From contig QJNS01000752.1 in NCBI GenBank assembly GCA_004154925.1, positions 682,001-746,000 of the forward strand: a DNA stretch of 64,000 bases. Reading direction: 5' to 3'. This DNA is from Monosporascus cannonballus. Taxonomy: Eukaryota; Ascomycota; Sordariomycetes; Xylariales. Positions 496-64,000 of this stretch are shown piece after piece. Made by a program: the position numbers and the translations under genes. Within the stretch, counting starts at the first letter, position 1, and each line of letters begins with the position of its first letter. The notes beneath the pieces were generated by a model. That model searched no databases, was not told the origin of the DNA, and saw nothing but the letters and a program-made list of their open reading frames with translations.

Positions 496-618
496 GAAAA
501 ACAAAGAAATATCGTTTCCATTACAAAGGTAATTACGTTTAACGTATATGTTGCCTTTAAAAACGTTTTTTATTATTTCGCATTTCCAGCCTTTTAAAAA
601 GCATAAAGAATACGACAT
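496..618 (-). pseudogene. Antisense zinc-cluster ORF, N-terminal part (left-edge copy)
   Basis: An ATG at 618 opens the antisense frame found near the 3' LTR of the Gypsy elements here. Residues at the six cluster positions 3, 6, 13, 22, 25 and 32 are Y, C, C, G, Y, C, so five of six are Cys or the Tyr expected from a RIPped Cys codon. The homology ends near 496, where the frame runs without a stop into gag-derived sequence of another fragment. That gives a chimeric open frame of 98 codons (322-618) that is unlikely to be a real gene. The host element is plus-oriented, and its 3' end is at 619-1176. Confidence 0.6.
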
Positions 619-1661: not shown

Positions 1662-4600
1662 CGATTTTCTTTTTTTAACAACATTACTTTTAAAAGGTTT
1701 TTCTTAAATAATTCTCCGTTTTATTAATTATATCCGATTGTATTTCTAAACATCGTTTTCTTAAAATCGAATAACTTTATGCTTTAACTAAGGTAATTAA
1801 AATAAAAGGTTTCAAAATTATATCGTATGTTCTTTGTTTTTCTAAATATTTTATTTATTAAATAATGAACAAGGTTTCTAGTTATAAAAGATCTATTCGT
1901 GGTAACTAGTTATAGATTAAAATAGACGTCTTAATTTTCATTATTAATTATTATATTATAAAGGTTGTTTCTATAAAAAGTATATTTCTCGTAATGGATT
2001 TATCCTATTTATTAAATTAAATTGAATTGCAAAAAAAAGTTTTATAAAATGATATTTAATATATATTTCAATGGATTTAATTATGTAGTTATTTAATATT
2101 TAAAAACGTGAAACAATATATAATTTAAATGGGATTTATATTTGGAAGTTTCATTTAAATTTTAAAACAAATCTAATTTATTAAACGTAAACAAATATAA
2201 ATACAAATTAATATATATCAAATATTAATTATATAAATATGTACTATTTATTGCGTAGTGATAGCTTTTTAATAAAATAAAGAATTCAATATTTTTGTAA
2301 ATATATTATTGGTGATAAAGGTATTATTATACTATGTTCTTATTATTAAATGTTGAAATAAAATTAATTTATTGAATATATTCATAATTATGAAAATTTA
2401 TAATTCTTTCTAGAAATTAAAAATAAATATATTTTTTCGTAATATTTACATCGCTATATTTCTATTCTTTTATAATAGTCGTAGTATTATCGTATTCGTT
2501 AAATTATTGTTTTATTAAAATAATAAATATCTAAAACTGCTTTAAAACTTAACAGACTTTTAAACGGCTAGTTACTTAATATATATCCACAAAATATATT
2601 AAGTTTATATAATAATTTAGTGGTTTATAATTTATTTTTATTTATATTATTTAAAATGTATATTAAGATATCTTACGCATTATTGTGCTTTATTACAAAT
2701 AGATATATGGTTTTGAGTAAGGTCGAGAATTATATAATTATTCTTAATTAATGTGTTTAAACATTTAACATGTATTTACCACATCGAGTTTTTTTACTTT
2801 TTTAAATTGCTTTTATTAATAATAGTAAAATCAAAATTCGTCATTTTTTTACATAATATAATTATAATCTAGTAAATATCAATACTTCAATTGCACTAGT
2901 AAGACATAAGAATCTCTAAAAACTTTAATTTAAGATATGTTGTATTTAACGAAAATGTGAACTTTTAAATATAATAATAAGCATTATAAATCATTTATTT
3001 AATATATTAAATTTAAATTTTATATCTTTTAAATTCTTCAGAACATATGTAATAAAATATGATTTGGTTTATTAGCCTTTTATGAAATTATTATATATAC
3101 TATATGAATCGCATTTTTAATATATAATTAAAATAAGCCTACATGAGTATATAATTAATAAGAATATTTGAAAATGTATTTGATATTTGTAATATTTATT
3201 TAACTTCCTCTATTATAATTAATTAAAAATATATTAACTTCTATAAACCTTTAAAATGATCTGTAATAATAATTGGCAAATTTAAAGAATATTAATATTT
3301 ATGTATTCATTATCTATGTATTTTTATATTATAGTATTTTTCTTGAAACTTATATCAATATATTTTAATATAACAACATATTTTAAATACCTTGTTTTCT
3401 ATTATTCAATTAATTCTTCTTTATATTAAGTAACAACTTCATGTTTTATAAAACTTAGAAAGCTTTATACGTCTATTTTATATATTTTTATACTTTCGGA
3501 AAAACAACGGTTTTATTGATACAATATATTACAAACGGGTTTAAAACTTTCTTAATAAGTTGTGTATTATGTTTTAAAACTGAATTTGAAATTTGAAAGT
3601 CTCATTAATATAGTTAAATCTTTCAATCAATTGATTTCTATTTAAAAAGTTATTCTTTATTTATATTGTTCAAAAATTCTAATAAAATTATATTTATTTT
3701 TGAAATTCAAAATTATATAGGAAGAAGCTTTATATGCTGAATTTTTTGTTTTAATAATTATAAACCATTTACAATATATTTATGTATAAATTATATTTTC
3801 TAGAAGACGTCAAATATACAAAATTTCATTATACGATATAATTATCCTAATAAATACTATATCTAATATTTTCTAATACGATAATTAATACGTCGTTTTT
3901 ACGATTAGGACAAATTATACATTAATTTTATAAAGCTGTATTTCAAAGCTAAATACGTAATTTTCGACAAATTTCGATCATAATAAACTATATACTCGTT
4001 AACCGATTTAGCAAAGTTGAAAGGTAAAACTTTAGGTAATATACTCTAAAAATAAATTTTGAAAATAAATGTTGAAGGTAAACCTTAAGAGTAAATATGA
4101 CGGCTAGGAGGTTTAACCAACTATTAAACCTTAGTCGTACGGGTTTATGTTGGCAGGAGTATCGTAGGAAACTAAGCAATAGATATAATAACGTGTCACG
4201 ACTCGTAATACCAAGGGTGCCTTGGGTAACGAATTGTTATTGTAAGCTAAAGCTATCTAAACTATAGAAATAATGAACGTATATATCTTATTCTGGCTCA
4301 AGGTGCTTAAGCGGCTCAAACCCTGAAGCCCGTTAAGCCCTTTGAGCTTTTTCGCCGGCTCAAGAGGCTCAAGGTGCTTGGCACCTTGAGACCTTTGAGT
4401 TGATCACGTGACGTCTTGGCTGAGGTCCGGTTTTGTTTTCCTCGTGGGTCCGACCGTCCGTAGACAAGCCAAGACCGTTAGGTCATAACAGTAAACCTTA
4501 TATACGCATAAAATGCTTTGGAAGCTTTTATTAGTTTTACAGTTAAAAATATTAAATTTAAATTTGTACATAGATTAAATATTCTAATATGGCTCATTAT

Positions 4601-14589: not shown

Positions 14590-15076
14590 TCTTATTTGGG
14601 ATACAAATTTAAAAACAAAATTTAAAAGGCTTAATACAATTCGGAAAAATGCGCGCGTTATGTTAAGTACGGAGGTCCTTATAACCGTTTTGGTTTTTCT
14701 GAATTTAAATATAATAAACTTATTACAAAAAAACCGCCCAATATTAAAAAAACGAATTACTAAAGAAAGATTACTAAAAATTTAATAACGTTTAAATAAA
14801 TTTTTTTTATCGTTTAAACTATTTATGGAAACAGAAAAACACTTTTTCGTAACCCCATTATCGAGATATTCCGTCGTGGTATTTAGGATACGGAAACCAT
14901 GGAGGAATTTAAGCGTTTAAAAAAAGCAGGAGCAGTTAGAGGCCGCCATTACGGCTATTACGTTAATGCAGGTTGCGGCTAACTGGCCCGACATCCCGGC
15001 TACCGACTGGTCGGCCGTTAACTGGGATACGCCCGTTATTATTAATAAAAGATTTTTAGCAGGCGTTAAGCGTTAA
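14590..15076 (+). pseudogene. Antisense zinc-cluster ORF (nested element copy)
   Basis: This plus-strand frame runs opposite to the pol genes of its element, between integrase and the 3' LTR. The second half-cluster is clear: TGC at 14650, then Tyr (RIPped Cys) after two and six further residues (KCARYVKYGGPYNRFGFSE). The first half is damaged in this copy. Downstream are a basic stretch, then IEIFRRGI and TMEEFKRLKK, then an alanine-rich helix and the tail WPDIPATDWSAVNWDTPV, with stop TAA at 15074-15076. A run of seven A's near 14920 shifts the frame by one; six would join the two parts. The tail is notably free of RIP. Family: Zn2Cys6-like by spacing. Confidence 0.65.
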
Positions 15077-22283: not shown

Positions 22284-22801
22284 TTAGCGCTTAATGCCTA
22301 TTAAAGAACTTTTATTAATAACGACGAACGCATCTTAATTAACAGTTGACCAGTTAGTAACCGAGATATCGGGCCAATCGGCCGCGGCCTGCGTTAACGT
22401 AACAGCTATGACGGCAGCCTTTAGTTATTCCTATTTTTAACGCTTTTATCTCTTTAATTCGTCCAATAACTGGAATTTACATTATACGATAGTAACGCTT
22501 TTCGAACGAATTAAAGTCTTTTATTTACGTAAATAAATAAAACGAAAAAAAAGTTTATTTATCATTTTTTAATAATAACGTTAAACCTTGAAATAAAACC
22601 GTTAAAACTTTAATAATCGCTTTTCGGGAAATTTTTTTCGCCCTTTAAACTTTTATATTTTCGGCAAATATTTTAGAAAAAGCAAAACGGCATATTCGTA
22701 TTATCGTAAAACCGATTTCGATTAATATATTATTTATAGCTTAAAACGTTTTTTCTCATTTTACACTTTATAGTTTTCGAAAAATAATAAAAGCAAGGCA
22801 T
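22284..22801 (-). pseudogene. Antisense zinc-cluster ORF (element 1 copy)
   Basis: ATG at 22799-22801 gives MPCFYYFSKTIKCKM. The six cluster positions 3, 6, 13, 22, 25 and 32 are C, Y, C, Y, Y, Y: all Cys or RIPped Cys, spacing x2-x6-x8-x2-x6. A lysine-rich stretch follows, then AAADWPDISVTNW and a stop at 22284. The length is not a multiple of three, so at least one indel is present besides the RIP stops. Strand is opposite to gag-pol of its element. Confidence 0.68.
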
Positions 22802-37510: not shown

Positions 37511-37990
37511 TTAGCGCTTAACGCTTATTAAAGAACTTTTATTAATAACGATAAGTACGTCCTAATTAACGGCCGACCAATTAATAACCGGGATGTCGGG
37601 CTAATTGGCTACGGCCTACATTAACGTAATAGCTATAATAACAACCTCCAATTATTTTTATTTTTACTCCAAACGTTTAAATTCCTCCATGGCCTTTACG
37701 CCCTTAATCCTTCGACGAAACATTTTTATACTACGGCGACGGAACAACCGCCTTTATTTTTGCAAACGGTCCAACTTATTAATAATGATACGCAATATTT
37801 TACGAACTTGTTCCTTTTTATGTTTTAAATGGTTCTCCTTATTAAGAAATTTTTGGTACTTGGCCTCCGAAAAACCAAAAACATTATAAGGGCCCTTATA
37901 ATAAATATATCGCGTACATTTTAAAAACTTTCGAGTAACTTTATATTCCGTACTTTTTTTTCGTAACGAAAACAAAAAGATATCTTAAAA
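37511..37990 (-). pseudogene. Antisense zinc-cluster ORF (element 2 copy)
   Basis: Minus-strand frame between integrase and 3' LTR. 37511-37975 is 155 codons in one frame, with RIP stops only. It contains KCTRYIYYKGPYNVFGFSE, then coiled-coil-like sequence (LKHKKEQVRKILR), MFRRRI, MEEFKRLE and the tail PDIPVINWSAVN. The N-terminal half-cluster sits in the neighbouring frame across a run of eight A's (37954-37961). With nine A's the Cys/Tyr positions would be spaced x2-x6-x8-x2-x6 exactly as in the other copies, so a one-base loss is inferred. Confidence 0.68.
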
Positions 37991-39111: not shown

Positions 39112-40914
39112 TCACCACTTCTTAGCCTCACTACCGTCCGGAGGTAGTGTCTCATACTTCTTATCCTTGGCCTCGGCCCAGGACGTCGACAGCGAGGTGC
39201 CGTTGCTCTCGATGTAGCTCTTCATCATGGCGCGGCGCGTGTCGTCGTCGGCGTTCTTATAGATGGTCTGGAAGAACGAGTTGACGTCACCGTCGCCGTC
39301 CTTCTCCGCGTCGTCCTCGTCATCAATCTTGTCCCAGTTCTTGGGCCCCTTCTTCGAGGACGTCGGGTATGCCGGTCCACTGCTAGTCGCCGCGGCGGGC
39401 TTGGGTTTGTTAGCGTTATCGGGTGGGGGAGCCGCTGCTGCCGTGGCCTTGACGGGGCTGTCGACCTGCATGGCGTCGCCGGAAGGGTGGGCTGCAGTGA
39501 TTGTGCTAGAGGTGATCTCTGATATGCTAGGAGCCAGCTTGTCCTTGGTGACTGCCAGAGACTTCAAACCAATTCGCAATTTCTCCAGTAGGTCCTCGTA
39601 CCAACTCGTCTCATCACTGCCGACGCCCTTCAGTTGAAGATCCTCGGGGCTCTCATACCTTTACCACATTAGTGCATGGGACTCATAAGAGAAGCAGCAC
39701 CAGACACCTACCCTAAGCCGGTGACAAAGTTGTAGAAGTGACTGAAGGTTGTGGCGGGCGAAGAGGCCAGTGCGAGGTTATCGAAAACCTCGGAATTTTG
39801 TTTACGCAACGTCGGCCACTTCCCCGGCGTCTCCTTCTTGAGGATGAGCTCGATCTTCATCGACTTGACGGTGTGCTTGGTCTCCTCGGGTTTGATCCTG
39901 TCATAGAGGAAGAGTTGGACCCGGCCAGTGCGGGTATTGGGGATGGGACCCAGAGTTACCTGAATCCGAAGTTAGCTCAGAATACAGTCACGTCGGTGGA
40001 ACGAGTTGGTTTACGCTATCATTCTGGGCATCGACGTTGAATTCGTCTCTGGGAACGTTCTTGACGAACAAGTCGACATTAAGCGTGGTATCTGTCTGAT
40101 AGTAGCTCGATCGGATATTGTTCTTTGCATGCAGAGTACTGAAGTCATTCCACAGCTTCTCCCATGCCTGTTTCTTGGATGTCTCATCGTTTTTGGGTGC
40201 AGATGCGCCTTGACCAGCGTTCTTCTCTTCCGGGGCATTGTTCTCGTCCTCGCTGGTCTCTACAGCTGCCGGCTTCTCCTCAGTCTTCTTGTCGGGAAGC
40301 TCCTCGGGCCGGTTCGGGTACTTTTCCGTGATGCCGACCTTCCTGCCAGGATCGCCGGGGGGCAGCTGTTCCAACTTCGTCAGGGCCTGCAGCCGCCACG
40401 TGAAGGCCTCGTTGTTCAACTGCGCCTCCTTGGTCCTCCCACTACTCCCGCCCATAGCGGCCGACAGCCCGTCCTGCGCATTACTGGCGGGGCGGGCGTT
40501 CGCCGCCTTGACCTCTTCGAGCGTGACGGCGTAGTCGCCGTTCCCGTCGATGCGGGCGGCCTGGCCATCGTCCTCGGAGGCGCGGGCGCCTTCGCAGAGC
40601 CGCATGGCCCAGAAGGCGCAGATGTCGGCGTCGGCGTACCGCTTAAGGCGGAAGTAGGTGACAGCGCGGCGGATCTGAGCCTCGACCATCATGTCACGGT
40701 TGGCGCGGTCGAAGGCGACGCGCAGCGCACGCTCGGCGTCGTGCAGGGCGCGGTCGATGTCCCCCGTGCGCACGTAGGCCTTGGACCGCTCGAGCAGCCA
40801 GAGGGGGGCGGGCTTCTCCTTGAGAGCCTCCGTCAGTTTCTCGATGCCCTCCTTGTACTTTCCGGCTGAGACGGCCTTGACGCCCCGGTCGGCGAGTACG
40901 GTCGCCGACGGCAT
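39112..40914 (-). CDS. sgt1: SGT1 HSP90 co-chaperone (TPR-CS-SGS)
   Basis: Three exons: 40914-40015, 39959-39712, 39658-39112. Introns of 55 and 53 bp have GT donors, CTAAC/CTAAT branch sites and AG acceptors; 564 residues. Residues 1-112 are TPR repeats. 113-265 is a charged linker rich in Glu/Lys/Ala. 267-350 is the CS (p23-like) domain that contacts HSP90 (SSYYQTDTTLNVDLFVKNV, then SMKIELILKKETPGKWP). 480-564 is the SGS domain (KKGPKNWDKID, DVNSFFQTIYKNADDDTRRA, LPPDGSEAKKW). The domain order is diagnostic. SGT1 links HSP90 to kinetochore and SCF ubiquitin-ligase assembly. It is longer than yeast Sgt1 (395 residues) because of the linkers. The start is the only ATG in the frame; the open frame further upstream begins without one. 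Same strand as ERG7, 598 bp downstream of it. Confidence 0.96.
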
Positions 40915-41512
40915 GATTTCCGGGTGTGTGATTATGTGGAAATTTTGAATTCCGTGAGCGGTTATCAAGTGAGAAAAGGGGAGAAGCTGTTGGATATGAT
41001 GATAAGGTGTTGGGCTTTTTAAGACGCAATTTAAAATCAAAAGTGCTGGGTAACGTGACGTAAAAGCAGAGAAGGTGATACAGACCTGCTGGCAGGACGC
41101 AGTAGCTCGATGTTTGATGGTGGGGTAATAAGTAGAGGTAGGTAGCTCCAGAAGCTGCCATTGGATTCTTCCGGCTTTATTTTCGAAGGTGGGGGGCGGT
41201 GAAGACCGACCTTGATTGGATATGGGTGTCACCGCCTGCCAAGAAATAATGCTAGGTACCTACCGAAGCGGTAGCCACAACACCAACAAACTAGGTATTA
41301 GGTCATAGGTACGGTTTAAGCCCGAGCCGCGAACTGATTCGTTCCCAAATAAGGCGTACAAGATCACAGTAAAGTCTCGTATGCCTTCTCGGAATCACAT
41401 AGTATTCATGATCATCATCTCTAATAGTAAGCACTACTTCATTAGACATTAGACACGACTCATATAGGTTAGTTTGCAAACCATCGCCTGTTGACCCATT
41501 AGCCTCATCACA
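40915..41512 (-). promoter_or_regulatory. SGT1 upstream region / ERG7 3' region
   Basis: 598 bp between the ERG7 stop and the SGT1 ATG. The part next to SGT1 is pyrimidine-rich on the coding strand (CTTCTCCCCTTTTCTCAC), as is usual for fungal core promoters. No clear TATA box. It stays open in the SGT1 frame for about 105 codons but lacks an ATG. Confidence 0.5.
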
Positions 41513-43943
41513 TCAAACCACCGTCTCGTCCGGATACTTCGTTGCGAACATGCCGAGCGCCTTCATGGTGAACGTGAACTTGTAGTTGGGGTACGAGATC
41601 ATGCAGCTTTTGTTGAATACCCCTTCGATGGCCTCCTGCTTCCACTCGCCGTTGGGCTGCTGACGGTCCATGATGAGCTCGATACCCTTCCTTATGGGTT
41701 CGATGTCCGGGTAGTCCGCCTTCATGAGGCCGATGAGGGCCCACGCCGTCATCACCACCTGCGAGCCCGTGGGATGTTCCGTATAGACGCCCACCTCGCA
41801 GGACTGTACGGTTCGTCAGGTTAACCATACCGGAGGCCAGTGGCGGAAATAGCAGTTGAGAGGGAATAGAAGCTTAGCTTACCTTGTAGCTCTCCGACCA
41901 CCCCCCATCTTCCCTCTGTTTCGAGATGAGGAAATCGCAAGCTCTCTTGGAGTGCGAGCTGTTCTCGTAGTGTTCCCCTATGCTGTGGAAGCTTTCCAAG
42001 GCGAACATCGTGGCGTAGGTAAAGCAGATGGCCCAATTACCGTAGAACGAGCCATCCGGTCGCTGGTACGACTTAATCCACTTGAGGGACCGCCCAATGA
42101 AGGCTTCGATCTCCCTCGCCCTGTACTGGGGCCAATACTCCCCGAACAGCTTCAGCGCTGTTATGACCGCCGTCGTGCACTCCACGTAGTCGTACTCGAT
42201 CATGATATTCTCGAAGACCTCGGCTGCGTTGAGCATCTCCATCAGCGGGCTGCCGCGGGTGGGTTCATACGAGGAGCAGGCGCCCGACTTATTCTGGTAG
42301 GTGAGGAGGGTGTCGACGGCATCGAAGAGCCGCTGGTCGTCTAATAGCTGTGGATACCCCGGCGTCTTCTGCAGAAGGATCACCGATTTCAGTGCCTCTG
42401 CGATGCAATCGCATACGGCGTAGCCTTGGTCCCTCGTACTGAAAGCCCACGCTCCCTTGCGCTGCTGGCGGTAGCAGATGCCCTGGTCTTTGCAGTTCTC
42501 GCGTATCTGCTGGTCGTCCAGAAACTCCAGCGCCTTCGTCAGCATCGGCCGCCAGCGCGGGTCCTGCTCGAGCCCGGCGTCGACGACAGCCTGCATCAAG
42601 AATGCGGTATCCCAGCACTGTACTCCGTTCGTACCGTTACAGAGCAGACCCTCCGAATTAACCCAGATAGCATCTTCAAGACGCTCCAGATGCCTCCGCA
42701 CGGTATACGAACCAGGCCCATCACGAATGTAACATACGATCGTATTCATCGGGGCATTGACTGGAGCAAGATCGGCGAAATCGGTATTAGCATCTTCCAT
42801 ATCGATCAGCTTGCTGACCCAATTTTCAGATTTGTCTGCGAGCCCCTTTGTCCGACAGTAGGGGTTCCAAATCTTGACGTAGAACCAGTTCAGTGTATTC
42901 AGCAACCAGGACTTCGGGTGGTAGTTGTCCCTAGGACAGATGGTGTTCCGGTTGCCGGCCCAGTCGATTTTTTCCCAGGGCTCGACGAACAGCTCCTGTC
43001 GCAGAGAGCGGATCACGTCCGTCTCCTCACACGTCCATTTCTTCGACCATATGTAACCCATGGGCAGGAACACTTGTCGCATGTGGATCCACCATCTCCA
43101 AGGGGCAAAAGGTACCCAATCCGGCAGCAGCCATATCTCAGGGGGCACGGGGTTGACGATATCCCAATTGCAGATGCCCAGCAGACTGAGCCAGAACTTG
43201 GTCCAGTGAGGGCCATGCGTAGCGCCACCGAGCTTGTGGAGGGTGCCTCGCGCCTTGACCATTACGGGGTGTTCGGGATCCACGCCGACGAGCCGCAAGA
43301 CGGTGTAGTTCATCGAAGTCCCGAAGACGGTGCTCTCGCCTTCGATGTGCAATCCCCAGCCTCCGTCCTCGGGGTGTGCGCGGGCAAACAGGTAGTTCTT
43401 GATCTCGGTCGCGACATACCACGGAATCGGCGTCTTGGTCGCATACCAGGTGAAGACTATGCCGGGCAACAGGAACATGGGACCACCGTATTCGCAGCCC
43501 CACTGTCCCGAGGGGAGTTGGAGCTTCTCGAAGAAGGTGAGACCATTGATGACGGTGTCAAGGGGTTTCTTTGCTTTCGGTAGGTCGGATTGCCCCTTTC
43601 GACATCGAATTAGACCAGACGTACTTCAGTACGGTATTTCTGACGAAAAAGGAAAAGGGGGCATATCGCAGTGTACCGTCTCCAGGCCAAGATAATACTT
43701 GTCCGCGATGCTCTGCGGCCACTTCTCCGCAGCTTCATCGTCTTCTAGGTAATGCCACGTGTGCCGCCCCTTCTCATCTAGCATGCGCCATCGTGTGCGA
43801 TCGGTCCTGTCCTCAAGCTTCGGTCGCTTCGTTTCGGTGCTGCTCAAGTCGTCTCCGCTAGCTCGCTTCCTCGCTGCGCCATTGTCATTGGGCTGTGCGA
43901 AGCCATTGGCCTTCGCCGTAGCTCCAGAACGCGTCGTCACCAT
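41513..43943 (-). CDS. erg7: Lanosterol synthase (oxidosqualene cyclase)
   Basis: Three exons: 43943-43677, 43595-41883, 41803-41513 (introns 81 and 79 bp, both phase 0); 756 residues, typical for the family. It cyclises 2,3-oxidosqualene to lanosterol for ergosterol synthesis, usually on the ER or lipid droplets. QW-type repeats are visible, for example EDGGWGLHIEGESTVFG, RPDGSFYGNW, REDGGWSESYK and QPNGEWKQEAIEGVF. The catalytic acid motif is DCIAE at 485-489: Asp and Cys are kept, and Thr of the usual DCTAE is Ile. The active-site His is at 260 (WIHMRQVFLP). NKSCMIS at 724-730 matches the lanosterol-synthase form (NKSCAIS), not the APPGGMR form reported for protostadienol synthase. So ERG7 is favoured over a secondary-metabolite cyclase. 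Residues 1-45 are a charged, poorly conserved leader. ATG chosen at 43943, the only one in frame that precedes the conserved RWRMLDEKGRHTWHYL block with room for a leader. Confidence 0.96.
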
Positions 43944-47574: not shown

Positions 47575-47844
47575 ATACCTTAGTTTTTTTATTCCGCCCG
47601 ATAACTTAATTGCCAAATAATAGACGGGGTTTTTCGTTATAAAAAATGCGTTCGTCGAGGTCGTTTATATAACGGGACGGAAATCTTTATTTTTATAATT
47701 AATCGTCATATTGGGGAATCGAATAAATTAAAGGAAAAAGAATTAGCGGCCGAAAAATCTTTGTCGGAAGCCTTAACGCATTTTTCTCGAATATGCTATT
47801 AACGTTAACATTATTAATCGTAAGGTGCGAAACTGTAACGAACC
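47575..47844 (+). pseudogene. Antisense zinc-cluster ORF, 5' half (element B copy)
   Basis: The frame around TGC at 47611 gives Tyr, Cys, Tyr, Cys, Tyr at cluster positions 6, 13, 22, 25 and 32, with the standard spacing; position 3 is TAG. Charged sequence follows (KLKEKELAAEKSLSEALTHF). The frame is cut at 47845 by insertion of element G. Its 3' end is at about 55021-55237 and ends VTGKSFLIGGKHQ before TAA, matching the end of the element H copy. Confidence 0.6.
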
Positions 47845-48448: not shown

Positions 48449-48811
48449 ATGCCGTATATGCGCTATTTCGAAAAAATTTTTTTTTGCAAAATATTAGAAA
48501 ATCGAAAAAACTATCAGAATTATTTGGCGGCCAATATTTAATCCTATAATAAAAACCATATCTTACTTTTATCGTTTAAAAACATCCGGGCCGAAAAATT
48601 CCGGATAAACCGAAAAAAACGTTTAACTATTTAATAGTTCCAAAAATTATCCAATCGTATCGTTCGGTTAAATCGTTAATTTAAATAATTATATTCCAAA
48701 AAGGTATCGTTTATTTAAAAGGGGCTTAAAAATATGGATAAATTAAAAAAGCAAAAAAAATTAAATATAGAAAAGGATCATAAAAAAAAGAATAAGCATA
48801 GCTTGTTTTAA
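48449..48811 (+). pseudogene. Antisense zinc-cluster ORF (element G copy)
   Basis: ATG at 48449; 121 codons to TAA in one frame, with several RIP stops. MPYMRYFEKIFFCKI gives Tyr3, Tyr6, Cys13, then Tyr22, Tyr25 and Tyr33: the cluster spacing with x7 in the last gap, still within the Zn2Cys6 range. LSFKNIRAEKF matches LSFLKNIRAEN of the element H copy. It ends in a lysine-rich stretch and lacks the WPDIP tail. The presence of this ORF in an element with an unrelated LTR shows it is not confined to one LTR family. Confidence 0.62.
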
Positions 48812-55020: not shown

Positions 55021-58000
55021 AAAACTTATAAATCGTATTCTTTAATTGCTGGACGAATCTTCGGAACCTATATTATAAAAGATAAAGTCCATTATAGCCG
55101 TTTAAGCTGTTAAAGATATGGATGTTATTAATTGGAACGTCGTAAGCTTTCTAAATAATGTAAACTAAGGCGCGATTATTTCCGGTAGTTCCGTCGTTAC
55201 TGGTAAAAGTTTTTTAATAGGCGGTAAACACCAATAAAATTCTTGGCAGGTTCCTAAGTATTTTCGGAATCCGGATGTTTTTTCCATTTAATCAGATACT
55301 AGGTAAATTTCTTTTGTTTTTCCGTATCGAAAATTTTTTTATTTCGTACGTTTATTCGCTTTTTATCTTTACGTCGTTTTATGACTTATATACCTTAATT
55401 ATATTCGTTATTAATTCGAATAAAAAACCGTAAAAATTTGGATAAAATTTAATGTTTAATAAAGGTTCCAATTAATAATTATTTTCGAAGATTTTATTAA
55501 TAATTTTATATAAACCGAAATACTTAAAGTCGAGTTTTTTATTCGGTCGTTTTATTTAAATATTTTTAATAACGAGGAAAACCATTTCCCTCTTTTCGAC
55601 AGTTAATCTTTTTAACCTTTTTTAATTAAGGTACTTGCTTATTTAATTTCGTACGAATTTTAGTTCCGTTTTTATTTTTTGGTAAAACTGTTATAATTAT
55701 TTTAACGTAAAAATTGTTTTAATTTTAATTAAACCGTCGTCGCGTATTGTTCTATAGATATTTAAAATAAAACCAAAATTTACGTTAGTTAATATTATTT
55801 TAATACTTTTATAATAATTAATATTATAAGCTAATTATGCGATTAGCAATTTTTTAACCCAATTATTTTATTCGTCATTAATATAATATCGTAAGTAAAT
55901 TTCTAAAGTTTAATTTGTTTATTTTATTTATTTATCCGTTTAATGTTTTAAATATATTAAATAATTTAGGATTTAAACTAATTTATGTTATGAGGCTTTA
56001 TTAAAATTTCAATGCACATATCGCTTTTTTATTTAAGATAAATTTTATTAATAATTCGTATATATTAAAAATGTGCTTAAAAATATATGTTATTAATTCG
56101 GCGTTTGTATCCTTATAATATGGTAAGAAATAAAAGAATTTCGTAAATCGATCGATGATAACGAAAATATTATCGTAATATATTTCCGTAACTGGATTTT
56201 GTGATATGGGAAATTTGGTAATAAAATCGAATATAACTAAATATTATGGTCGTTTTACGACTGGTAACGGTTATAATATTCCGTATGGCTTATATTATCG
56301 TATTTTCGTTCTGGCGTAAATATCGTATTACCGTATAACTTTTTATACCGTTAATTTTATTTTTTAAAAAAATATATACGTTAAAACCGTTTTGGAATTT
56401 TATAGATTCTAAGATATCCGTATAGCTAATATTTATATATATTTCGTAGTAGATTTTTCTGATATTTTTCTAAAATTTATATTTTATTTGTTCTTTAGTT
56501 TTTTGACAGATTATCGTTATATTACTAGATCTTTTCATGTATATCGAAAGATATTGCCCGAATTATTCCAATTTGTCGTAGGTATAAATATCTTTTTATA
56601 CTGGTATCGAAAATTATATAACTAATTTTAATTAATTTTTCTTTAAGGTAAAGTCGTTTATTTAAAATATTTGCTTTGTTATTTTTAAACCCTTTTTATA
56701 AATAATAACGAAATCGAAATTCGCTAACTTTTTTATATAACGACTTTATCGTTTTATAAGTTTTCTAATCGTAATAAATCGGGTAATATTTTAATAATTT
56801 ATATAAATTTTAATTTGGTATAAACTTCCTTTTAGGAAATACCTAAATTCTCGAAATGCCATAATAATAGCCATAAATTCTTTATTTGGAATGCCGTAAT
56901 TAAGCTAGGTTTTTTTAACTTATACGAAAAGAATATAATAAGGTGTAATTTGCCTTAATTATTTCGTTATTTAATTATTACGTCCAACGCGTAATTCCAA
57001 ATATCGGTTTTTAGCTTAATAAAGCGGTTTAAATTGTACATAATTAATTTTAGCTTGTTAATAATCGTATTCTTAATATTTTGAAATATTTTTTCCGTAT
57101 TTAACATTTATTTGAAATTTCTTTTTTCGTAAAATTTAATAAAGGTATAATTATCCTGCTAAAATTCCAAATAAACTTCCTATAATAATTAATGAAACCA
57201 AGGAATACTTATATCTCCTTAATTATGGTTAACGTTTATTGTTTTGTAATTATAGCGATTTTTTAAAAATTTATCTTAATATATTTTAGGGTAATAATAT
57301 ATTCCACATATTTTACTTTTTATTGGTAAAATTAATATTTTTTTTGCATTAATAAGTAATTTTACGTTTTATGAAGCTTAAAAAATTTTATAAATATATC
57401 CTATATTTTTTTTAATTTTATGAAAATCAGAATACCGTTAAAATAATAAACGACAAAAATATCGAATTATTTTTACAACATATAATTAAGTATTTACCGG
57501 AAAATTATTAATACGTTCGTATATCTTATTAACGTAACCAAAACTTAAATAATTCGTAATTCGTTTCGAAAACTGTTTTTTTATTTGTATTTTTTTAATC
57601 CTAATAAAATTATATCCATTTTTAAAATTAAATATTATAAATTATTTAATTCCATAAAATCAGTTTTTTATTTTTGTAATCAAAAATAATAATTTTTAAT
57701 TTTTAATAATAATATTATTTTCAATAATTAATCACAGATCGTAACTTTTTATTTCTTTGGGTATGAAAAATATCGGATAACCTTCTGGTAATTTCGAAGG
57801 TCGAATTTATCCTTTTTGTAACCGATTTTCCAAGTATTTTCGGAAAATACGTAATTCGTTTCCGTTAAGATTATCAATAAGGTAAAATTTCGTTGAAAAT
57901 CCTTTTTTAAACATTATTTCGTAATCTTATTGGCTATATTTTAGGAATTTCGTATTAAGCTTTTTTTTAAAAACGCTATTTATATCTATAATATTATAAT

Positions 58001-58181
58001 AACATATTAATCAGATTTTTTAATTCTTAGGGTTATTATTTTTCAGGTTATCGTTTAATTACTTTAGTTTTATTCTGATAATAATAACAATACGTCGTAT
58101 TCTTTTTTAATACTTATTTTTCTCTTATATCTTATCTCTTTGGGTAATAAGATTTTTATCGTATCCTTATGCCTGCATTTA

Positions 58182-58552
58182 TATGACGGCTATGCGGTTT
58201 AACCAATTATTAAAGCTTAAGTCGACGGGTTTATATTAACAGGAGTATCGTGGGAATCTGAGCAATAAATACAGGAACGTATCACATCTCGTAATGCCAA
58301 AGGTGCCTTGGGTAACGATGTTATATTATAAGCTGAACTATTTAGACTATAAAAATAATATACGTATATATCTTAATTCTTTTATTACCGCTTATTTTTG
58401 CTTAGCAAAACCTTATTAAGTAATTCCTTAATATTACTTAATCGTACTTAGTTAAAATCTGCTAAGCACTAATTACGTAATCCTGAACTAACGTAACTTT
58501 TGTAATCTTAGCTAAACCGTTTTCGCAGGCCCAGCTGGCTTGGGTTGTAATA
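58182..58552 (-). repeat. 3' LTR of Gypsy element H
   Basis: 371 bp, TATGACGGC to GTAATA on the plus strand, followed by the reverse-complement polypurine tract (CTTCCTTTTCCCC). U3 resembles the LTR at 789-1176 (TTTGCTTAGCAAAAC region). Confidence 0.8.
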
Positions 58553-61500
58553 CGATCTTCCTTTTCCCCAAATCTTGCCCTTAAGATTTTTCTTTTCTTC
58601 TAGTAAATCTTTTCCTTTTAAAATATCGGCCCGCGTTACTAAAAATCGACGTCAAATTCTTTCGTCCACCGTACGACGTTAAAATCTGCTTTTTATCTTT
58701 GACGATTTTAGTTTTGAAATCATGCCGTATTCCCTATACTTTTCCAAAGGTTGAAAGTGCGAAATGATAGAAAATGTTTCCAAATGCAAGGCGTATATCA
58801 AACATAATTATCCTTACAATAGTAACGGTATTCCCTTATCCTTCTTAAAAAATATTCGTGCCGAAAATTAACGTTTAAAACGCAAGGAAATACTTGCGGA
58901 AAAACGTTATTAACAGGAAATAAACAAGGCCATTATACGGTTAATCCGTTTTCGAAAACAGAAAGCCTTTTTTTATTCGAAAAAAATTAAAATAATATAA
59001 CAAAAATTATAGTTGCTAAAGGAACTAAAAAAACAAAAACGTCAAAAACAAAAACAGTTAAAGGCGGCCGTTACGGCTGCCACGTTAGCATATGTTACGG
59101 CCGATTGGCCCGATATCCCGGTTACTAATTAGTCGGCTGTTAATTGGGATACGCCCGTCGTTACTGGTAAAAATTCTTTAATAAACGCTAGGCGCCAATA
59201 AGATTTTTGGCGGATTCCTAGGTATTTTCGGAATCTGGATATTTTTTCCACTTAATTAAATACTGGGTAAATCCGTCCTATTTTCGCATATCGAGAAGTT
59301 TCTCTATTTCATATATTTATTCGTCTTCCATTTTTATATTATCCTATGCCGTAAGTACTTTAATTATATCTGTTATTAATTCGAATAAAGAAATATAAAA
59401 AATTACATAAAATTTGACTTTTGGTGGAAATTTCAATTAATAATTATTTTCTGAGATTCTTTTGGGAATTTTGTATGGACCGATATATTTAAAATCGAAT
59501 TTCTTATTAGGTAGCTTTATTTAAATATTTTTAGTAACAAGAAAAACCATTTTCCCCTTTTCGAAAATTAATTTTTTTAACTTTTTCTGCTTATAATATT
59601 TATTTATTTAATTTCGAACAAATTCCAGTTTTGTTTTTATCTTTTGGTAAAATTATTATAATTATTTTAACGTAAGGATTATTTTAATATTAATTAGACA
59701 GTTATCGCGTATTTTTCTATAAAGTTTTTGAATAAAACCAAAATTTACGTTTGTAAATATTATCTTAATATTTTCGTAATAACTAGTATTATAAATTAAT
59801 TAAGCGATTAATAACTTTTAATCTAATTATGTTATTTATAATTAATATAGCATTATAAGTATATTTCCAAAGTTTAATTTATTTATTTTAATTATTTCTT
59901 TATTTATAATATAAAAATGCTAAATAATTTGTAATTTAGGCCGATTTATGCTATAAAGCTTTGCTAAAACTTTGATACGAATATTAATCCTTTATTTAAT
60001 ATGATTTTCAATAATAATCCGTAAATGTTAAAAATATGTTTAAAGAAAATATATGTTATTTATTTGGCGTCTGTATTCTCATAATATGGTAGAAAATAGG
60101 AAAGTTTTGTGAATCGATCGACCATTACGAAAATGCTATTATAATATATTCCCGTAATTAAATTTTTTAATATAGGAAGTTTAATAATAAAATTAAACAT
60201 AACAGAATACCATAGTCGCTTTGCGACTAATAATGGCTGTAATCTTCCGTATGGTATATGTCGTCGAGTCTTTACTTTGGTATAAATATCTTATTGCCGT
60301 ATAACTTTTTGTACCGTTAATTTTATTTTAAGAAAGGAATATATGCGTCGAAATCACTTTAAGGTTTTATGGATCCCTAGATATTCATATAACTGATATT
60401 CGTATATTTTTCGTATTAAATCCTTTTGGTATTCCTTTTGAATTTATATTTTATCCGTTTTTTAATTTTTTAGGACATTATTATTATATTATTAAACCCT
60501 CTGGTACATATCGAAAAATATTATTTGAATTGTCGCAATCTGTCATAAACGTACGTATCCTTTTATAATAATATTAAAAATTATATAACTAATTTTAAAC
60601 AATTCTTTTTTAAGATTTAATCGCTTATTTAAAATATTTGCTTTACCGTTCTTTAATCCTTTCTTATAGATAATAACAAAATCAAAATTCGCCAATTCTT
60701 TTGCGTAATAAAGTTATCGTTTGTAAATTTTTTGGTCGTAGTAAATTAGGTAAAATTTTGATAATCTGTATAAACCTTAATTTGGTGCAAATTTCCTTTT
60801 AAGAAATGCTTAAATTCTCGAAATGCCATAATAATGGCCATAAATTCCTTATCTGAGATACCGTAATTAAATTCGGTTTTTTTATTTTATATAAAAAGAA
60901 TATAACAAGATATAATTTGCCTTAATTATTTCGTTATCCGATTATTACGTTTAATACGTAATCCAAAATATCGGTTTCTAGTTTAATAAGGTGGTTTAAA
61001 TCGTATATAATTAATATTGGTTTGCTGGTAATCGTATTTTTGATTTTTTAACATACTTTTCCCGTATTTGGCGTCCATTTGAATTTCTTTTTTTTTCCCT
61101 AAAATTCGTTAAGGGTATAGTTATTCTATTAAAATTTCGCATAAATTTCCTGTAATAGTTGACGAATTCAAGGAATATTTGTATTTCCTTAACTGTCGTT
61201 GGTATTTGTTATTTGATAATTATAGCGATTTTCTTATAGTCCATTTTAATATATCTTAGGGTAATAATATGTCCTAGATATTTTACTTTCTATATATGGA
61301 ATTAACTTTTTTCTGCGTTAATAAGTAACCTTGCGTCTTATAAAATTTAAAGAATTTTATGAACGTATTTTGCGTATATTTTTTTCGTTTTTGAGAAAAT
61401 AAAAATATCGTTAAGATAGTAAATAACGAAAATATCAAGGTATATTTCTAGCACGTAATTAATTATTTGCTAGAAAGTTGCCGGTATATTTATAAGTCCT

Positions 61501-64000
61501 ATTAATATAACCAAATATTTAAATAATCTGTATTTCGTCCTAAAAATTATTTTTTATTCGTATTTTTTAATCCTAATAAGGTTATATTTATTTTTAAAAT
61601 CAAATATTATAAATTATTTGGTTACATAAAATTGCTTTTTTATTTTCGTAATTAGGGGTAATAATATTCGATCTTTGACGGTAATGTCGTCTAGTTATTA
61701 ATAATTAACCATAAATCGTAATTCTCCGTTTTTTTTCGGTACGAAAAATATTGAATATCTTGCTGGTAATCTCGAAGGTTGAATTTATTTTTTCTGTAAC
61801 TGATTTTCCAGGTATTCTGTAAAAATACGTAATTCGTTTCCGTTAAGATTATTAATAAGGTAAAATTTTATTAAAGATTTTTCCTTAAGGATAATTTTAT
61901 AATTCTATTCGTTTATATTCTAATAATTTCATATTAAGTTTTTTTCTAAAAAGTTATCTATATTTATTATATTATAATAATATATTAATTAAATCCTTTA
62001 ATTCTTAAAGTTATTATTTTTTTTAACTCGTTATTTAATTGCTGTAATTTCGCTTTGATAATAATAATTATACGTTATATTTTTCTTTAATACTCGTTCT
62101 TTTTTTATATTTTATTTTTTTAAAAAATAAAGTTTTTATCGCATCCTTATATTTGTATTCGTCGCTATTATCTATCGAATATTAAGATCTTAATTTTTTT
62201 ATTTGTTTATAAAGTAAAAGATAAACCTTACCTAGCTAAATTTTCCATTCATTAAAATTCCGTATTAACGTATTTATAATAATTCTAAAATTATGTCGTA
62301 ATTTTTAAATAAAATAATATCGAAATCAACTATCTAATACTATTTTTTAATAAAAATCTAAAGGTAATTAATTTTGCGTAAGATTATTTTGTTATCGTAA
62401 ACAAATTCTTAACCTTCGGTATTCGTTACTATATAAGGTTTTAACTTATATCTTTATGATAATTTATACTTATTAATCACATTTAATATAATATAATTTT
62501 CGCCCAAAGTTTTTTAATTTATTTTTACGTTATATAAATACGTTTTAATTTATATATCCAAAATAATAAGGTTATTAACGTTTTTTATTATCGCGTTTAA
62601 AGCTTTTTTTTTAAAAATTTCTTTTAATTTCTTTAGGTTCCGTTATTCTATAAGTAACTTTTTTTTAATTCCTATTTGAATCTATCGAATCTTATTTATG
62701 TTTTTTCGTTTAATGCGTAAAGCTGTTATATTTATTATTATTATTAACGTACTGTTCCTTTAAACCGTATTAATTATTCCTAGTTTTGTTGTAATTTTTT
62801 TCCTTATCCAATAAATTATTTTCTTATATTTATAACTGCATCTTATTATACGTCGTTTTAATTATCGTTCCAAAAATCTCCTATAAATTAACGTATTTTT
62901 TCTTTAATAATCTTTTTTTTCTAAAAATCCGTAATAAATGCTAAGTGAAAATGAAAATCCGTAATAACTTTTTAACAGTACTTTTTTACCGTACACTGGA
63001 TTAATTCTTTTTCCGTTTAATAATTATACCATCCATAATAATAAAAAAGGTTTTTTTACGGGCATTACTTTTTTTCGGGCTAGCTTTTTATTTTAGCTAA
63101 TTACTAAATATCTTTTAGCGTTATGGTTCCAAAATATCGATATTATTACTTATTATCCTTATTATTTTTAGTACTGTTTAAAAAATCGAATCCCTTATAA
63201 TACATACGGGTAATTTATTCGTAAATATATTACTTCCATTTTTTATAATTAGGATATTCTCGTCGTCGACAATATATAGCATATATTTTACTGTATTGAT
63301 TAAAGGTTCCGGGACAAACCTTTTTTATCCAGTTCTAATATTCGCATAATTACGTTTATAATATTTCTTATTATACTTATGATAGTTATTGAGCTAACCT
63401 TTTAGCTTTTTACATTGCTTATCGAATTTTTTATCGTAATAATCCTTATTAGACCTTTTGTTATAAGCCTAATATATATTTGGCTTAAATTATGTTAATA
63501 ATTTTGTTATAATTTCCTTAATTATTCTTAAATTACTTTTCCGATATAAGGGTTTAATTATTCTATTATAATTTCATGGGCTTTTTACATTTATCAGCCT
63601 TATGCCCTATTTTACCATAATTAAAGCACTTAATTTAGCTCAAATTTTATCTATAAGTAACGCCGAGTTCCATAAGTCCTAACGCCGTTCCATAAAAAAT
63701 AAGGGGTATATCTCGTTTTTTTCCCTAGTTAAACTTATTGTATCCTGAACGTAAGGCGTATTATCCCTTTTTTTATCGTTTTTCAAACTGTTAATTATCG
63801 ATTTTGATTACTTTTACGATATACCAGTCTAAAGTAACTAATTATTTAATCCGAATAATTTTATTTTTTACGTTATTCTTTAGCCATTTATAAAATATAT
63901 CGATAATGGCGTCGGCTTTATTATCTCCCTATCTTATCATAGCCGCGAAACTTTTAAATGTTACGGTATATTTAGATACGGGTCCTTTTTATCGGAATTA
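58553..64000 (-). mobile_element. Gypsy element H interior, runs off the window
   Basis: Minus-oriented. By alignment with the nested element at 13980-20956, integrase is about 59450-60650, RNase H about 60660-61000 and RT about 61050-61900 (motif YLND at 61407-61418). The protease region is near 63120-63340 and gag begins near 63400. The 5' LTR lies beyond the right edge. Many RIP stops. Confidence 0.8.
58722..59201 (+). pseudogene. Antisense zinc-cluster ORF (element H copy, best full length)
   Basis: ATG at 58722 to TAA at 59199-59201 is exactly 160 codons in one frame, broken only by RIP-type stops. MPYSLYFSKG, then KCEMIENVSKCKAYIKHN, put Y, Y, C, C, Y, Y at positions 3, 6, 13, 22, 25 and 32, that is C-x2-C-x6-C-x8-C-x2-C-x6-C after allowing Cys to Tyr. 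Then come a basic region with FRKQKAFFYSKK, a helix rich in Lys/Gln (LLKELKKQKRQKQKQLKAA) and the tail ADWPDIPVTN, SAVNWDTPVV. Order and spacing resemble a Gal4-type zinc cluster, linker, coiled coil and acidic aromatic tail. It runs opposite to gag-pol. Confidence 0.72.

Follow-up and report, generated by a model that had tools for sequence, protein, structure and literature searches.

An antisense frame with a Zn2Cys6-type cysteine module beside the 3' long terminal repeat of chromodomain Ty3/Gypsy retrotransposons in Monosporascus cannonballus

Introduction

Do the chromodomain Ty3/Gypsy retrotransposons of the ascomycete Monosporascus cannonballus encode, on the strand opposite to gag-pol, a zinc-cluster protein of their own? 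The question is raised by a 64,000-nt stretch of contig QJNS01000752.1 (hereafter the window), part of an 88.8 Mb genome in 618 contigs, in which an initial annotation had described seven Gypsy copies with an antisense open reading frame (aORF) just inside the 3' long terminal repeat (LTR), carrying cysteine (Cys), or tyrosine (Tyr) as its product under repeat-induced point mutation (RIP), in the spacing of fungal Zn(II)2Cys6 clusters. We examined this frame, represented by the copy at 58722-59201 on the forward strand, in the window, the genome and other sources, and we hold it to be, with high confidence, a protein-coding antisense frame with a Zn2Cys6-type module. Positions are those of the 64-kb window, and window-equivalent positions continue its numbering past the 64,000-nt stretch.

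Results

Six cysteine positions in three families. All copies were counted as they stand in the genome, with no consensus and no base correction applied to any of them. Codon positions 3, 6, 13, 22, 25 and 32 of the 58722 copy read Tyr, Tyr, Cys, Cys, Tyr and Tyr, and the copy bears an in-frame stop at codon 11 and several further stops; its frame, these residues and the TAA end are as first described. Cys or Tyr at all six positions was likewise confirmed by our counts for this copy and 22801- (reverse strand), two of the seven copies in the window. The further claim that most positions match elsewhere held for 618- (Gly at 22), 47575+ (stop at 3) and 48449+ (Ser at 32, Tyr at 33), with five of six each, but not for 14590+ and the uncorrected 37990-, in which the pattern is absent in the original register and a C-x2-Y-x6-Y second half lies in the same frame, offset by whole codons.

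Across the genome, the antisense frame occurs in at least three large families. Protein searches gave at least 150 matches each for family A (58722 type, one copy as query; 150 of 150 scored, among 1867 candidates), family B (47575 type; 150 of 150, among 1100) and family D (48449 type; 150 of 150, among 976), these counts being lower bounds from three match lists that may overlap. For family A we tallied 90 loci (30 from the search output and 60 fetched, with 60 further matches left out) and found that 83 had Cys or Tyr at six positions, 4 at five, 1 at four and 2 at three. Codons TGY, TAY and others numbered 6/81/3, 51/35/4 and 55/32/3 at positions 3, 6 and 13, and 37/52/1, 9/80/1 and 41/49/0 at positions 22, 25 and 32. 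The change from TGY to TAY is among those made by RIP, and Cys was retained more often in copies with more G+C outside the six codons (Spearman 0.46). Among 118 codon columns, only the six named ones and column 70, which is Tyr or His and never Cys, reach 90% Cys plus Tyr, and the pattern therefore exceeds chance. At codon 30 (58809-58811 in the copy at 58722), 20 of the 90 copies have Cys and 44 have Tyr, the rest having Arg, Ser, Gln and others.

In family B (20 loci of its 150 matches), Cys or Tyr was found in 14, 19, 20, 19, 19 and 20 loci at the successive positions, with Cys at position 32 in just one. In family D (42 rows, made up of the window copy, locus L143 and 40 more near the top of its 150 matches), the counts were 42, 42, 42, 42, 41 and 42, with the last residue at position 33, and in one row all six are Cys without any correction. 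The proposed spacing C-x2-C-x6-C-x8-C-x2-C-x6-C thus describes family A (83/90), but family D differs in a last spacing of x7.

Relatives in other sources. No relative of the window copy alone was found among 29 candidates in the protein database. A profile of 12 copies found P0001 (93 residues; Cys at four positions, Tyr at two) in a large protein database, and a profile of ten sequences including P0001 then matched P0002, P0003, P0004 and P0005 (E 1.1e-32 to 1.2e-20); P0001 reappeared, along with two weak proteins at 0.05-0.06. P0004 (F5Y03DRAFT_356377), annotated as a hypothetical protein, is from Xylaria venustula and has 178 residues; the other four numbered proteins come from short contigs of 747 to 2013 bases. 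P0002-P0005 have exactly six cysteines each, spaced x2, x6, x8, x2 and x6, and the presence of all six in outside relatives means that the feature is real. Each of the six positions is thus Cys in these four outside proteins as well as in 6-55 of the 90 family-A copies, and the refuting outcome named in the initial annotation, six positions that are not Cys, did not occur. The cysteines are common to the families and the outside proteins, which have little else in common. Viral contigs held no confirmed relative of the antisense protein.

Coding history. Since RIP yields transitions only, we scored purine/pyrimidine changes (transversions) for the coding test; the p values are rough, the copies being related to each other. 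In family A, transversion-variable sites number 54 among 118 third codon positions and 35 among the 236 at first and second (p 8.5e-10), and within codons 1-110 they make up 26 of 34 mostly fourfold against 27 of 76 mostly twofold third sites (p 8e-5). Stops in more than 30% of copies are confined to ten columns, all of which also show CAA, CAG or TGG. Because transversions cluster at third, chiefly fourfold, positions and the common stops lie at such CAA, CAG or TGG sites, the antisense frame is a protein that was once under selection. The same pattern by codon position and degeneracy, together with cysteines kept between families and in otherwise dissimilar outside proteins, makes it very improbable that the antisense RNA alone matters (through double-stranded RNA, silencing or interference) with the frame incidental, even though many genome copies are broken and a regulatory role has been proposed for antisense RNA of plant elements in passages of one paper (PMC7264820). 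A by-product of pol was considered and ruled out, the overlap with pol being only 80 nt; codons 1-118 lie outside pol, which ends at 59122 on the opposite strand. A family-D copy (L143:2507-3028, reverse strand), in DNA of 41-47% G+C, runs without a stop over 174 codons within an open frame of 220, with Cys at 13, 22, 25 and 33 and Tyr at 3 and 6. This frame adjoins a fall in G+C from about 41% to 24% and below.

Place in the element. The focal element is a chromodomain Ty3/Gypsy retrotransposon, with LTRs, a target site duplication, a Gypsy-type reverse transcriptase and a chromodomain ending pol. Its LTR pair has 285 identities, 77 transitions and 10 transversions in 372 aligned columns. Its integrase and RNase H pieces had no Pfam match; an integrase relative is present in L143. 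Among 50 long-flank loci of families A and B, which were found via the frame itself and so are no measure of frameless elements, LTR-like sequence lies upstream of the frame in all 50 (in family B, part of the LTR) and the chromodomain end of pol lies downstream on the opposite strand in 49, in agreement with the location just inside the 3' LTR given at the outset. In L143, pol integrase and chromodomain sequence lies on the other strand, 3' of the aORF, and an LTR like that of the focal element did not turn up in 5.5 kb around that copy. Taken together, the sequence evidence supports the first reading of an antisense coding frame with Zn2Cys6 spacing beside the 3' LTR.

A host Zn2Cys6 gene captured recently and riding as a passenger would have had ample sources, with 143 PF00172 matches over the cut-off among the 149 listed for the genome. 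We nevertheless consider such a capture highly unlikely, as against it stand three very different families, the same place in A, B and one D copy, and homologues elsewhere; because of these families, this shared place and the homologues in other sources, the frame has been kept for long.

Start of the frame. Although the reading of the focal frame stood, its proposed start at 58722 probably lies too far downstream: the protein probably starts at 58623, because the in-frame alignments of P0002 and P0003 begin at 58620 and because of the column of ATG and ATA at codon -33. This codon, 99 bases upstream of the ATG first proposed, is ATA in the window copy; among the 76 family-A copies with readable upstream sequence it is ATG in 32, ATA in 35 and another codon in 9. 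The leader between the 3' LTR and this start averages 73% C+T over 30 family-A loci; C+T-rich stretches precede many fungal transcription starts, and the leader is such a stretch on the antisense strand.

Relation to Zn2Cys6 domains. The Zn2Cys6 cluster (PF00172) has the spacing range C-x2-C-x6-C-x5-12-C-x2-C-x6-8-C, within which the x7 of family D falls; P0002-P0005 match this spacing exactly and the genome copies match it by tally. A zinc-cluster fold and a coiled coil are predicted for the antisense protein. The model of P0005 resembles the Zn2Cys6 fold, in which two short helices surround two zinc ions, all 20 of its 20 PDB matches being Zn2Cys6-type entries (no single one significant) and the fit to LAC9, PPR1 and GAL4 being 1.6-1.7 A over 33-35 residues, but that of P0004 does not, its one PDB match (E 9.4) being of no use, so that the structure predictions bear out the proposed fold in one of the two; a long helix is present in both. 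Against viral models, P0005 gave three matches, none meaningful. Sequence searches of the PDB found no match with query A1 and three weak ones with A4, two of them to Cep3/CBF3 subunit B; the matches of A3 to five other proteins (best E 2.2e-5) were rejected as coiled-coil look-alikes.

A profile test against host Zn2Cys6 domains, with A6 built from 14 of 20 fetched regions (one used twice, 15 rows; L123, L126, L129, L132, L135 and L138 left out), scored 19.7 (E 2.9e-4). Sixty shuffles of all columns reached at most 18.0; 60 that kept the Cys columns had a median of 15.1, with at least eight above 21. Because Cys-keeping shuffles score above 21, the likeness to host Zn2Cys6 domains is, at the level of sequence profiles, one of cysteine spacing and no more. 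This confinement is what favors the view that module and helix serve a step other than transcription, such as tethering of the integration complex, packaging or RNA binding; we regard that as quite unlikely, since the P0005 model resembles DNA-binding entries only and nucleic-acid binding is usually provided by gag.

Discussion

Several observations are weak or count against this reading. Full-length proteins fall below the 21-bit curated cut-off of PF00172 (10.0 for P0004 and 12.0 for P0005, with P0002 and P0003 not listed), as does the isolated module of P0004 with 15.2 bits, the best E among four isolated modules being 0.0032; the search with this model that the initial annotation proposed thus gave no match over the cut-off, and the antisense protein is therefore not filed as a PF00172 member. 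The number of stops is uncorrelated with cysteine loss in family A (Spearman -0.04). In the 32 of 90 rows complete over 118 codons, a column in which 95% of rows or more have a stop closes two of the three opposite-strand frames, but the third and the two other same-strand frames have no such column; with only two of five other frames closed, openness alone cannot single out this one. Finally, the 33 codons upstream of 58722 show weak contrast between codon positions (varied sites 26/33 at third against 23/33 at first and 20/33 at second positions), and it is from the outside proteins and the ATG/ATA column that the N-terminal extension draws its support.

On balance we favor, with moderate confidence, a small dimeric zinc-cluster DNA-binding regulator encoded by the element. 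The frame would be an accessory gene of a group of chromodomain Ty3/Gypsy elements, pointing away from the 3' LTR and opposed to gag-pol, with an antisense transcript that would start at the element's 3' end. Its product, of some 175-225 residues, would consist of the six-cysteine module, then a long helix, then a tail that is short, acidic and aromatic; several relatives also have a putative basic extension at the N-terminus. GAL4, PPR1, PUT3 and LEU3 bind DNA as homodimers through their DNA-binding domains, and the antisense protein would most likely do the same, with zinc bound in its module. Its probable first target would be the LTR and leader of the family to which it belongs, and it would so set the level of sense transcription. 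The antisense protein is like these factors and LAC9 in cysteine spacing, in the long helix after the module and, in the P0005 model, in predicted fold, and unlike them in its score under the PF00172 cut-off, the lack of residue likeness beyond the cysteines, its retrotransposon origin and its length.

The sign of such an effect may be read from the tails, which vary between and within families; many, those of outside proteins among them, carry an aromatic, acidic core with tryptophan, which suggests activation more than repression. Several alternative C-terminal tails follow from about codon 116 in family A (L023, L025, L052, L055 and others), behind a shared zinc module and helix, as if tails had been swapped between elements. 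Acidic, aromatic tails with tryptophan are more like activation domains, and this core in outside proteins and many copies tells against a DNA-binding zinc-cluster protein acting as a repressor, to keep copy number down or silence the element in the manner of HBZ of HTLV-1, an alternative that we judge unlikely. Its appeal lies in the shared arrangement: HBZ is an antisense gene from a retroelement 3' LTR whose product has a regulatory DNA-binding type of domain, and passages of one paper report that HBZ and APH-2 suppress Tax transcription (PMC9822710). By the same source HBZ differs in being a bZIP protein of a human retrovirus with tested function, leaving a likeness in arrangement only (PMC9822710). 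No bZIP family was among the Pfam matches listed for our sequences.

Antisense frames beside the 3' LTR, first presented as known in plant elements, are indeed known there, but also in a fungus. Boty-like Ty3/Gypsy elements of Botrytis cinerea have an antisense gene, brtn, according to passages of three papers (PMC8365987, PMC7264820, PMC4227169), which cite Zhao et al. 2011 (Virology 417:248) for it; a Monilinia transcript similar to BRTN has been reported (PMC5987419). Boty shares with our elements a fungal chromodomain Gypsy framework in which an additional antisense gene separates pol from the 3' LTR. Unlike for the frame of families A, B and D, the passages on brtn mention no zinc cluster, BRTN being compared by description only. 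In plants, the TRP28 antisense proteins of Retand are, in the passages concerned, predicted DNA binders and proposed regulators (PMC11963269); their frames also lie antisense between pol and the 3' LTR and are kept in nearly all clusters, and they differ in their domain (PF04195), their plant hosts and their non-chromovirus lineage.

What is new here is the zinc-cluster module, the antisense gene by the 3' LTR being already known in plants and Boty. A survey of fungal LTR elements uses neither the word antisense nor the word zinc in its main text (PMC3248453), and no zinc-cluster antisense gene of LTR elements was among the results listed by searches of the open-licence literature, as the initial annotation had supposed in calling such a protein not generally described; were BRTN a relative of these proteins, the novelty would fall. 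The protein is under-annotated, lying below the Pfam cut-off, with its Xylaria venustula relative labelled only 'hypothetical protein'. The 3'-end antisense genes of plant LTR elements and Boty have been described without settled function, and a six-cysteine module belongs to a class whose DNA sites are known and for which assays are at hand, which makes the question of a transcription factor for an element's own LTR testable.

We also put forward, tentatively, a wider possibility: that GAL4-like transcription factors are encoded antisense by an ancient and widespread class of fungal chromodomain retrotransposons, driven from the 3' LTR and C+T-rich leader, with each family's factor tuned to its own LTR in a self-contained circuit, and that such factors may also influence host promoters close to insertions and give rise to new host Zn2Cys6 genes. 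Should an element encode the transcription factor of its own LTR, fungal transposons would distribute not just binding sites but also DNA-binding regulators, with a bearing on the origin of fungal regulatory networks rich in Zn2Cys6 factors.

Other features of the window

Coordinates of the aORF copies and of the focal element are collected in Table 1.

Table 1. Antisense frames and parts of the focal element, in window positions
Feature	Position	Strand	Remarks
aORF piece, family A	502..618	-	Cys/Tyr at 5/6 positions
Weak aORF relic	1820..2005	+	Absent from the initial list
aORF piece	14638..15073	+	Cysteine pattern: second half only
aORF copy	22287..22801	-	Cys/Tyr at 6/6 positions
aORF piece	37514..37957	-	Cysteine pattern: second half only
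aORF piece, family B	47575..47832	+	Cys/Tyr at 5/6 positions
aORF copy, family D	48449..48790	+	Last spacing x7
Family-B-like aORF C-terminal tail	55022..55228	+	Absent from the initial list
Target site duplication ATTTA	58177..58181	.	Second copy window-equivalent 64860-64864
3' LTR of focal element	58182..58552	-	Partner LTR window-equivalent 64489-64859, outside window
Leader	58553..58622	+	70 nt, 74% C+T, between 3' LTR and aORF start; complement of polypurine-tract region
aORF, family A	58623..59201	+	Probable start 58623; ATG first proposed 58722; TAA 59199-59201; several stops
Zn2Cys6-type module	58728..58817	+	Codons 58728, 58737, 58758, 58785, 58794, 58815 = Y, Y, C, C, Y, Y
Long-helix part	58836..59054	+	Likeness to P0004 and P0005 models; limits approximate
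3' end of pol	59122..59201	-	In-frame stops 59125-59127, 59122-59124; 80-nt tail-to-tail aORF overlap
Chromodomain at pol end	59164..59313	-	PF00385, 53.8 bits, cut-off 25.1
Reverse transcriptase	61263..61742	-	PF00078, 44.7 bits, cut-off 29.6

The focal element is nested in an older, similar element, pieces of which lie at 56028-58170 and at window-equivalent 64865-65885 (L099); the pol-like and gag-like pieces of the older element flank the focal one and are 74-76% identical to its own. A GC-rich island at 39115-43478 (reverse strand) holds host genes that include a TPR protein and an SGS-domain piece, presumably SGT1, and a squalene-hopene-cyclase-type protein that looks like a sterol cyclase.
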